Below are positions 4,065 through 7,677 of a stretch of 64,000 bases of DNA, piece by piece. The stretch is from the NCBI RefSeq assembly GCF_023913515.1, contig NZ_CP099391.1, positions 558,001-622,000 of the forward strand, written 5' to 3'. The translations under genes and the position numbers were made by a program. The notes below the pieces were generated by a model, which was given only the letters and a program-made list of their open reading frames with translations, did no database searches and was not told where the DNA came from. This stretch comes from Natronococcus sp. CG52 (GTDB lineage: Archaea > Halobacteriota > Halobacteria > Halobacteriales > Natrialbaceae). Numbering within the stretch: the first letter of the stretch is position 1; each line of letters begins with the position of its first letter.

Positions 4065-5264
4065 ATGCTCGAGTGCGTCATCGTCGGCGGCGGTATCCAC
4101 GGTACCTACCTCGTCCAGCGACTCCTCGAGGACACCGACCTCGAGCGCGAGGACGTCCGAATCGTCGATCCGAACGAACGGCTGCTGGCCTCGTTCCGTC
4201 GCAAAGCGCAGGCCTGCGAGATGGACGCGATGCGGTCGACGTTCGTCCACCACGTCGGCACCGAACCGTTCGGGCTCGAGAGTTTCGCCGAGGCGTGCGG
4301 TCGCGAGGACGAACTCCTGCCGACGCCGGGCTACCCGCGGCGGCCGTCGTTATCGCTCTTCCTCGACTACGCGGAGTACGTGATCGACGGTCGCGAACTG
4401 GAGGTGCTGCACCGGCGGACGGCGGTCGAATCGATCGACGACCGCGCGGAGGGAGCGGACGGAATAGTCGTCGAGACGGCCGACGGACCGATCCGGACCC
4501 GGTCCTGCGTGCTGGCGATCGGCCACGGTGGTCGCTACCGAACGCCCGACTGGGCAGACGGAATCGACGCGGTCACCCACGTCTGGGACGGGTTCGATCC
4601 CGACGCGAGCGCCGACGAAACGGTCGTCGTCGGCGGCGGCGTCACCGCCGCCCAGCTGGCGACCTGCCTCGCCGATCGGGAGTCCGTGACCCTGCTCTCG
4701 AGACGCGAACTCGAGGAGGCGGCCATCGAAGCCGATCCCCGCTGGATCAACTGGAATCACGTCGAGCGCCACCTCCACCGCCACCCGCCGGGCGCTCGAG
4801 CGCGCGTCGAAACCGTTCGCGAGGCGCGCAACGACGCCACGATTCCGCCGACGCTGTTCGATCGTCTCGAGGACGGCGGGCTGACGGTCCGCACCGACGA
4901 GGTTCGATCGGCTCGCGCCGTCGGCGACCGCGTGCGTCTCTTGCTGGCCGACGACGGCTGTCTCTCCGCGGATCGCGTCGCGCTCGCGACCGGCTTCGAT
5001 CCGGTCTTCGAGCATCCGTTCGTCGACCGCGTCGCGGACGAACTCGGCCTCGAGCGAGGCTATCAGGGGATGCCGGTACTCGACGACGAGACGCTGGCGT
5101 GGCGTCGGACCGACGGCGGCCGCTCGCCGGTGTTCGTCACCGGCGCGCTGGCGGCCGGGACCGTCGGCCCCTTCGCAGGGAACGTCGCCGGCGCACGGCG
5201 GGCCGCCGATCGGATAGTGGGGTCGATCGCCGCCCTCGAGGCGCCGCCGCTGCCGGCCGACTGA
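4065..5264 (+). CDS. FAD/NAD(P)-binding oxidoreductase, unknown substrate
   Basis: A Rossmann dinucleotide motif opens the protein (VIVGGGIHG, G8-G13) and a second one lies mid-protein (TVVVGGGVTAAQLA). The ATGFDPVFEHP segment near the C-terminus fits the second FAD strand of the flavin monooxygenase/ornithine N-hydroxylase-like group. At 399 residues it is a normal length. Substrate cannot be inferred, and the neighbours give no pathway. The ATG at 4065 follows an AT-rich promoter-like stretch (about 4011-4050). Confidence 0.75.
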   Translation: MLECVIVGGGIHGTYLVQRLLEDTDLEREDVRIVDPNERLLASFRRKAQACEMDAMRSTFVHHVGTEPFGLESFAEACGREDELLPTPGYPRRPSLSLFLDYAEYVIDGRELEVLHRRTAVESIDDRAEGADGIVVETADGPIRTRSCVLAIGHGGRYRTPDWADGIDAVTHVWDGFDPDASADETVVVGGGVTAAQLATCLADRESVTLLSRRELEEAAIEADPRWINWNHVERHLHRHPPGARARVETVREARNDATIPPTLFDRLEDGGLTVRTDEVRSARAVGDRVRLLLADDGCLSADRVALATGFDPVFEHPFVDRVADELGLERGYQGMPVLDDETLAWRRTDGGRSPVFVTGALAAGTVGPFAGNVAGARRAADRIVGSIAALEAPPLPAD

Positions 5265-5275
5265 CGACGCAACCC

Positions 5276-6425
5276 TTACTCGGCCGGCTCGTCCCCGCCG
5301 GTCGGTTCGTCGACGCTGGCCTTCCGGCGCAGCCACTCGAGGCCAAGCGCGCCGCCGACGATCCCCGCGCCGGTCGTGAAGCCTGGAACGTCGTCGCCCG
5401 CGTCATCTTCGTCGTCGGTCGTCTCGTCGCCGTCTCCGTCTATCTCGTCTTCGCCACCGTTCGCGTCCGGATCGTCGTCTCCGTCGTCTGCAGCGTCCCC
5501 ATCGTCTTCGCCGACTCCGCTCCCATCGTCCTCGTTGTCTGAGTCGTCGTCCTCGTCGACTGGGTCATCGTTGGCCGAGTCGTCATCGTCGGCCGAGCCA
5601 TCGCCGTCCGGTTCGGCGTCGTCGGCGTCGGACGCGCGCAGCGCGACGAGTGCTTCGACGGTCTCGAGGTAGAGCGTGTTCTCGTCGGCGGCGATCGGTC
5701 GACCGCCGGCGTCGGGGAGTTCTTCGTCGAAGTCGAGGATCCACCGGTCGCTGCCGTCGGCGATGTTGAACGCGACGAGCGACCGCTCCGGATAGTCGGA
5801 TTCGACGTGCTCCGGCGGCGTCGCGAAGTGACCGGCGGTCAGCGCGTCGCCGACGACGATCGGCGACCGCCACGCGTTGTGGTCGCTCTCGACGGTCCAC
5901 CGGTTCCCGCCGTCGAAAACGGTGAGTTCGCCGTTGATATCCCAGTAGGTGGTGACGAAGGCCGTTTCCGTGCTGGCCCGTCTGTTCCGCTCGTAGTATA
6001 AGCCGTCGCCGGTTTCGGGGTCGAACGTGTATTTCACCCTCTCCGCCGCCGAGGTTCACGTTCACGGACGAGCCACTCGCCATGATCGGTTCGGTGACGG
6101 GACCGCCCGCGTGCGGGGCGTGAACGCGACCACTCACACGCGGTTGCCGGTTTCCGCGTCGACCGCGCCGAACCCGCTGGATAACTCGGTCGTGCACTCC
6201 TCCCCGTCGCGCTCGTCGGTGAACGTCGCGCCCTCGAGCGCGGCGTAGACGGTCCCGTTCGCGACGGCGACCGTCTCCTGACGGAACGGCGTCTGCACCC
6301 GCTCGTCGGACTCGTAGTGGACAGAGTCGGCCCGGACGTCGACCGTCTCCGCGCTCCACCGGGTCGAGCCGTCCGCGGGCTCGAGCGCGTGGAGCGCGCC
6401 GTCGACGACGAGACGGTCGTCACGG
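5276..6425 (-). pseudogene. PQQ-like beta-propeller secreted protein, truncated and frameshifted
   Basis: The C-terminal part (from 6037) has PQQ-type propeller repeats, a long Asp-rich linker and a PGF-CTERM tail (VPGFTTGAGIVGG then a basic end), the signal cut by archaeosortase A. The upstream part in the same frame has repeats such as LVVDGALHALEPADGS but begins abruptly near 6425 with no signal peptide. Between them (6136 down to about 6038) that frame holds three stops, while the third frame reads on as propeller sequence (PIMASGSSV, then VNLGGG). One missing base near 6136 (TGG read as TG) and a second shift near 6037 explain this. Convergent with the FAD protein. Function when intact: cell-surface protein of unknown role. 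Confidence 0.75.
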
Positions 6426-6586
6426 TCTGTAAGGCGGGAATCGTCGCTCGAAGGGCGACGTCGGTGGTCGAAAAGGAGGGCTACGACGCCGCGACGCTCG
6501 CCGGCGGAATGCGCGGCTGGAACGGCTATCGGAACGGGTCGATCGGCTACCGCCTGCGGTCGGCGCTCGGCCGCCTGCTTCCCTGA
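6404..6586 (+). pseudogene. C-terminal fragment of a rhodanese-domain protein
   Basis: In frame from about 6404 the sequence reads DETVVTVCKAGIVA and then GYDAATLAGGMRGWNGY, the catalytic-cysteine loop and last helix of a rhodanese (sulfurtransferase) domain, ending at TGA 6584-6586. The first half of the domain and a start codon are absent: upstream bases are the antisense of the PQQ propeller gene. It therefore looks like the 3' remnant of a gene cut by the same deletion that removed the 5' end of the propeller gene. Confidence 0.7.
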
Positions 6587-6673
6587 CGAGCCCGACTCGC
6601 GAAGATATCCACGAACGTGGATTACGGACGAAAGGCGAAAGCGTTTTTGAGCACGGATACGGGGTATCGAGTA

Positions 6674-6925
6674 ATGACGGCCTACACCGTGACGGTGACC
6701 GTTCGACTCAAACGCGGCGTCCTGGATCCCGAGGCGGAGACGACGAAACAGGCGCTCGAGCGCCTGGATTTCGAACTCGAGGCGCTGCGCTCGGCCGACC
6801 GCTTCGAGATCGATCTCGACGCCGCGTCCGCCGACGCCGCCGGCGAGCGCGCGAGCGAGATGGCGGAGCGACTGCTCGCGAACCCGACCATCCACGACTA
6901 CGACGTGGAGGTCGACGAGCGGTAG
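6674..6925 (+). CDS. purS: Phosphoribosylformylglycinamidine synthase subunit PurS
   Basis: The 83-residue protein (YTVTVTVRLKRGVLDPE start, then an alternating helix-strand pattern) matches PurS, the small subunit that dimerises and bridges PurQ and PurL in FGAM synthetase of purine synthesis. The ATG at 6674 is preferred over the in-frame codon at 6617 because family members begin MTAYTV-like. A T-rich stretch at 6641-6648 lies about 30 nt upstream. purQ follows 50 nt downstream, so they are likely co-transcribed; purL is not in the window. Confidence 0.93.
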   Translation: MTAYTVTVTVRLKRGVLDPEAETTKQALERLDFELEALRSADRFEIDLDAASADAAGERASEMAERLLANPTIHDYDVEVDER

Positions 6926-6975: not shown

Positions 6976-7677
6976 GTGGCGACTGTGACGGTCTCGATCG
7001 TCAGATTCGGCGGCTCGAACTGCGACCGCGACGCCGCACGCGCCCTCGAGCATCTCGACATCGGCGCCGAGATCGTCTGGCACGAGGACGGCCTGCCGGC
7101 GGAGACGACCGGGATCGTGCTACCCGGCGGGTTCTCCTACGGCGACTACCTGCGCGCCGGCGCGATGGCCGCTCGCTCGCCCGTCATGGCCGAGGTTCGC
7201 GAGGCCGCCGCCGACGGCGTGCCGGTACTGGGCGTCTGCAACGGCGCCCAGATCGGCTGCGAGACGGGACTCACCGAGGGCGCGTTCACGACTAACGAGA
7301 GCGCCCGGTTCCAGTGCGAACGCGCCTTCCTCCGGGTCGAGCGTGCCGACACGCCCTGGACGGCCGCCTACGACGAGGGCGAGGTCATCGAGGTTCCGAT
7401 CGCCCACGGTGAGGGCCGCTACGAGATCGACGACGACCGACTGACCGCACTCGAGGAGGAGAACCGCGTCCTCTTCCGCTACTGCGACGAATCCGGCGAG
7501 ACGGGGGCAGACGTGAATCCGAACGGCTCCAAACACAACGTCGCGGGCGTACTCGGCGACAGAGAGACGGTCGCAGTGTTGATGCCTCACCCCGAACGCG
7601 CGACGCTACCCGACGTCGGACCGACCGACGGCCAGGGTATCCTCCGGGGCTTCGATTCGGTCGCCGATCGCGCCTAG
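6976..7677 (+). CDS. purQ: Phosphoribosylformylglycinamidine synthase subunit PurQ
   Basis: Class I glutamine amidotransferase that supplies ammonia to FGAM synthetase. Visible motifs are PGGFSYGDYLRAG, the nucleophile elbow GVCNGAQ, and the His-x-Glu end LMPHPER. Length (about 230 residues) is normal. GTG 6976 and GTG 6985 (MTVSIVRFGG) are both possible starts; the second overlaps the TGA (6986-6988) of a 20-codon ORF that starts right after purS (6926), which may be chance. Follows purS. Confidence 0.93.
   Translation: MATVTVSIVRFGGSNCDRDAARALEHLDIGAEIVWHEDGLPAETTGIVLPGGFSYGDYLRAGAMAARSPVMAEVREAAADGVPVLGVCNGAQIGCETGLTEGAFTTNESARFQCERAFLRVERADTPWTAAYDEGEVIEVPIAHGEGRYEIDDDRLTALEEENRVLFRYCDESGETGADVNPNGSKHNVAGVLGDRETVAVLMPHPERATLPDVGPTDGQGILRGFDSVADRA

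Follow-up and report, generated by a model that had tools for sequence, protein, structure and literature searches.

How did two incomplete genes come to meet 5' end to 5' end within a row of intact genes in Natronococcus sp. CG52? The locus lies in the window of this study, a stretch of 64,000 nucleotides (G000:C1:558001-622000) of a 4.74-Mb genome in 3 contigs; positions given below without a contig name are counted within the window. On the left stands an intact FAD/NAD(P)-binding oxidoreductase gene (4065..5264, plus strand; Pfam NAD_binding_9 and Pyr_redox_2), with 87-88% DNA identity to its counterparts in the same-genus genomes G001 and G008. On the right follow purS (6674..6925, plus strand; Pfam PurS, E 7e-24), whose protein is 95% identical to those of G001 and G008, and purQ (6976..7677, plus strand; Pfam GATase_5, E 2e-37), both intact. 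Between these flanks lie a PQQ-repeat sequence on the minus strand and a rhodanese-domain sequence on the plus strand. A first-pass annotation had attributed their state to a single deletion of a shared promoter region and both N-termini of a divergent gene pair. Among the titles and abstract openings listed in searches on Natronococcus rhodanese and on haloarchaeal pseudogenes, none dealt with this locus. We propose that the site is most likely the scar of an insertion and a loss of DNA, consisting of two dead gene halves.

The minus-strand sequence is a 5'-truncated PQQ-repeat pseudogene (5276..6412). Its family similarity extends from 5273-5276, at or just beyond the stop codon at 5276-5278, to 6412, and the previously noted end near 6425 was right within about 13 bp. 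The piece was aligned to residues 183-571 (from residue 180 in one comparison) of an intact 571-aa paralogue in the same genome (L054, C1:1684531-1686243; PQQ_2, Pfam PF13360, E 1e-25). Identity between the two is 73% across the piece (645 bits, E about 4e-185), so the similarity is not due to chance. The remnant thus corresponds to a large part of a haloarchaeal PQQ_2 repeat protein ('BamB'-like), a kind of protein that presumably ends in a C-terminal PGF-type tail. Unlike such a protein, it lacks the 182 N-terminal residues and carries an internal stop and frame changes. An in-frame stop is present at 6134-6136 and two further stops at 6056-6064. Between about 6134 and 6040, the sequence resembles the paralogue in another frame, which by comparison points to two frame changes. 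The remnant's 253-aa frame by itself gave no Pfam match. The intact frame and N-terminal part expected of a functional PQQ_2 member are therefore both missing, and a single deletion taken as the full account leaves the internal stop and the frame changes unexplained.

Members of the PQQ family are scattered over this genome: 19 stretches were matched, the window copy among them, and 3 of these span residues 1-570/571. Of the other family pieces, the one at C1:1796460-1796714 is a stub of the C-terminal end, the one at C1:3397972-3399025 gave several separate matches, and the one at C2:143768-145012 has an internal stop. These copies suggest a quick birth and death of the PQQ family. A recent copy from the genome itself was rejected as the source of the piece, since the best own paralogue is just 73% identical over it; the donor is thus old, diverged or from elsewhere. 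Among 125 family genomes, no donor closer than the own paralogue was found at E <= 1e-20. The next-best candidate, from G072, is 74% identical over about 800 bp. This homolog (L203:1731-3528), the closest in another genus, looks frame-broken near 2240, possibly through a sequencing error. A 44-bp exact match to the C1:1685k paralogue was also observed at 6369-6412, ending exactly at the junction; outside it, the piece is 73-81% identical to that paralogue. The match is perhaps a trace of local gene conversion.

This exact match reaches the join, as might be seen if the assembly had fused unrelated sequence there. The genome holds no near-identical PQQ copy: the best other copy is 73% identical over the whole piece and 81% over 361 bp, others reach 86% in a C-terminal stretch of about 130 bp, and no exact match to the nearest paralogue is longer than the same 44 bp. 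Long identical repeats are thus absent, and repeat collapse is unlikely. The assembly is in 3 contigs, and the missing half of the rhodanese gene was found at no second locus in the genome. These results make an assembly artefact hardly credible.

The plus-strand sequence is the 3' remnant of a rhodanese-domain gene (6404..6586), identified by a Pfam match and by comparison with orthologs. In most relatives whose alignments reach that far, similarity begins at 6403-6404, and it continues to the stop codon at 6584-6586; the start of rhodanese similarity at about 6404, as noted before, was confirmed. The remnant corresponds to the last 60 codons and the stop codon of an ortholog of 122-123 aa. 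It is 79% identical to the G001 protein over 62 residues (E 5.7e-29), a value at which the similarity is not due to chance, and no other sequence in the genome matches this rhodanese better. No intact copy of the gene was found elsewhere in the genome; the next own-genome match listed after the remnant is 36% identical (E 4e-17). In its sequence, the remnant equals the 3' half of the single-domain rhodanese (PF00581) at the oxidoreductase-rhodanese-purS locus of Natrialbaceae, and it differs from that gene in having lost the upstream region, the start and the first ~63 codons. It covers positions 52-100 of the 102 in Pfam Rhodanese (PF00581), with a score of 22.1 bits (cut-off 22.2), compared with positions 2-100 in the G001 ortholog. 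The remnant therefore lacks the complete domain of ~100 residues expected of a functional member. The Cys loop VCKAGIVAR (C-K-A-G-I-V), which we take to be the rhodanese active-site loop, is kept as in most orthologs compared.

The native N-termini are missing from both genes, and to this extent the earlier statement that neither has a start was correct. The open frame that enters the rhodanese part does contain formal start codons (GTG at 6317, 6389 and 6464; ATG at 6509). The rhodanese remnant also probably lacks its native promoter. An exact search for the upstream motif CCGTTTTGT, which is found in 3 of the 6 relatives compared and as variants in others, gave no match in 5200-6700. This agrees with the former view that no promoter is present, a claim that was itself an inference. 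A sigma-70 promoter scan is not meaningful for an archaeon.

The remnant has kept its frame and is free of lesions apart from the truncation. When it was compared with four intact orthologs, dN/dS was 0.13-0.37, similar to the 0.16-0.35 among those orthologs, although 60 codons offer too few sites to separate recent truncation from constraint. For the broken copy of G008, 28 codons yielded 1.14 in comparison with the window and 0.90 with G001. On these sequence comparisons, the remnant's value may reflect recent truncation, but also continued use. A rival reading is that the frame 6317-6586 (89 aa) is expressed as a new chimeric protein, in which 29 antisense-PQQ residues would precede the catalytic half of the rhodanese. 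The frame is open over 133 codons, GTG starts are present, and the frame and residues of the remnant are preserved. Long open antisense frames are, however, numerous in this DNA, half of the rhodanese domain is missing (Pfam 52-100, with a score just under the curated cut-off), and the native rhodanese upstream region is gone. Such a protein, which would represent gene birth through truncation and fusion, is very improbable. Judged by their sequences, both the PQQ and the rhodanese remnants are most likely non-functional now.

The ancestral arrangement was then deduced from relatives. In Natronococcus and other Natrialbaceae, the FAD oxidoreductase, rhodanese, purS and purQ genes lie on one strand, and the PQQ gene is absent. 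The same-genus genomes G001, G002, G004 and G005 retain the order oxidoreductase-rhodanese-purS-purQ with a full rhodanese of 122-123 aa; in G005, one other gene separates the oxidoreductase from the rhodanese. In G001, 271 bp lie between the two flanking homologies and represent the spacer and the 5' half of the rhodanese gene; in the window, about 1.13 kb of PQQ sequence takes their place. With three relatives as stand-ins for the ancestral spacer and rhodanese 5' part, no similarity above shuffled controls was found in 5262-6404, and a search of the rest of the genome, run without a positive control, did not find this part either.

No PQQ gene was found beside a full-length rhodanese in any of 60 neighbourhoods from 125 family genomes (E <= 1e-4). 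In 30 of these neighbourhoods the flanks were about 1.5 kb long, except that a contig end left one of them with 342 bp on one side; in the remaining 30 they measured at least 1.9 kb. A co-oriented oxidoreductase gene lies upstream of the rhodanese in 24/60, and purS is within reach in 26/60. Nor was the PQQ gene present at any of 47 oxidoreductase-family loci at the same threshold (E <= 1e-4), with flanks up to 6 kb that had their full length in 34/47. Of these loci, 21 have purS and 13 a rhodanese ortholog, and the rest are mostly paralogues elsewhere. The two sets overlap, with several genomes common to both. The PQQ query detected the window copy in the same run. These results indicate that the PQQ gene is most likely a late arrival and no old partner.

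The same counts bear on the idea that an old divergent PQQ/rhodanese pair with a shared promoter was cut by a single deletion. The orientation of the remnants and their double 5' truncation would fit such a pair. A head-to-head arrangement kept in relatives was seen in none of the 60 rhodanese neighbourhoods, the 47 oxidoreductase-family loci are likewise free of PQQ genes, and the PQQ remnant carries additional lesions. We regard this origin as very unlikely. An intact pair, with which the first-pass annotation had suggested an alignment, was not found in these relatives, and its shared promoter could not be upheld, since the lost region lay in the spacer between oxidoreductase and rhodanese and the relatives have no PQQ gene there.

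We examined both junctions of the PQQ piece. At the left junction (5265..5275), 11 bp separate the stops of the oxidoreductase and PQQ genes. G001 and G008 remain homologous for 7-8 bp beyond the oxidoreductase stop, to 5271-5272, whereas the homology ends earlier in other relatives; in two paralogues from this genome, similarity to the PQQ piece starts at 5273, three bases past its stop. No clear microhomology was found at this junction. A transposon origin was rejected, as no repeat pair of at least 14 bp, inverted or direct, brackets 5273 and 6403; shorter pairs would escape the listing.

At the right junction (6404..6412), 9 letters fit both the PQQ and the rhodanese genes, and the exact match to the G001 rhodanese is 7 bp. 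The antisense overlap described before is a stretch of 9 bp compatible with both genes, which is a join and not two overlapping genes. The true parents of the join were represented by the G001 region and the intact paralogue. Among all 787,980 pairings of positions between these two, a match of 7 or more bp occurred in 0.13% and one of 9 or more in 0.015%; for the join itself, 9 bp applies on the condition that the ancestral rhodanese had the same letters as the window. A short identity common to both stand-in parents is therefore present at the join. A match of 7-9 bp is plausibly the trace of a deletion between short repeats. Microhomology-mediated end joining (MMEJ) is reported to be active in Haloferax volcanii and to produce deletions (PMC7776575; PMC7521656), so the proposed mechanism would require nothing new. 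The match of 7-9 bp and the loss of DNA resemble the MMEJ deletion junctions outlined for H. volcanii (PMC7776575), whereas the undeleted parent and the repair pathway in the present case are hypothetical.

Taken together, we hold with good confidence that a PQQ gene arrived late, that both genes lost their 5' ends and that both became pseudogenes, in whichever order. As the relatives show, the four genes for oxidoreductase, rhodanese, purS and purQ shared one strand in the ancestor. A copy of the dispersed PQQ-repeat gene would have entered the spacer between oxidoreductase and rhodanese in the opposite direction, as suggested by its absence from the site in relatives. Missing today are the first ~182 codons of the PQQ gene, the spacer upstream of the rhodanese, which measures about 100 bp in G001, and ~63 codons at the start of the rhodanese gene. 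Either a later microhomology deletion or the insertion itself may have removed the 5' ends of both genes, together with about 270 bp of ancestral DNA. The remaining ends meet at the 7-9 bp match and were probably joined via microhomology-mediated end joining or replication slippage.

The order of these events can be judged from the PQQ piece. Insertion of a whole gene followed by deletion appears slightly likelier than the arrival of a piece truncated beforehand, since the PQQ sequence is complete to its stop and lies tail to tail with the oxidoreductase, 11 bp from its stop. The other course remains a serious contender, at somewhat less than an even chance: in one step, a 5'-truncated PQQ piece came in and ~270 bp of spacer and rhodanese 5' half went out together, so that a divergent pair never existed. 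It needs one event fewer, the intermediate pair was seen in no relative, and the ancestral sequence was not found between the junctions. Among the 9 genus genomes, none showed the intermediate state with the PQQ gene adjoining an intact rhodanese. For random breakpoints, however, a PQQ piece that ends near its own stop and abuts the oxidoreductase stop is unexpected, and this end would be easier to obtain if the whole gene had resided at the site for some time. The single deletion of both 5' ends proposed earlier was partly right. Both ends are missing and the join bears 7-9 bp of identity, which makes deletion plausible as the last step, and the preceding PQQ insertion had been left out. The observation itself was real.

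The rhodanese gene is broken or missing in 5/9 genus genomes, the present one included, and full at the locus in 4/9 (G001, G002, G004 and G005). The G008 gene (L039:2909-3616) has a frame change, has lost its 3' end and has no recognisable start. G003, G006 and G007, some of which are draft genomes, gave only distant rhodanese matches (best E 8e-20 to 8e-19), and no rhodanese was seen next to purS in them. The spacer varies as well. In G008, a GYD-domain gene (Pfam E 1e-28) lies upstream of the broken rhodanese. The G003 locus (L041:2180-4070), from which the rhodanese is gone, has a universal-stress-protein gene (Pfam E 5e-34). A DUF3267 peptidase-like gene occupies the G005 spacer, and a similar frame is present in G003. 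The rhodanese gene seems dispensable, and its spacer seems to tolerate other genes.

This genuine pair of pseudogene fragments represents ordinary gene decay and matters little outside annotation, where both frames are best labelled as fragments of pseudogenes and the locus should receive no functional rhodanese. For the biology of these organisms, the locus illustrates how a dispersed haloarchaeal gene family can disrupt a neighbour, and the repeated loss of a dispensable-looking rhodanese within one genus.
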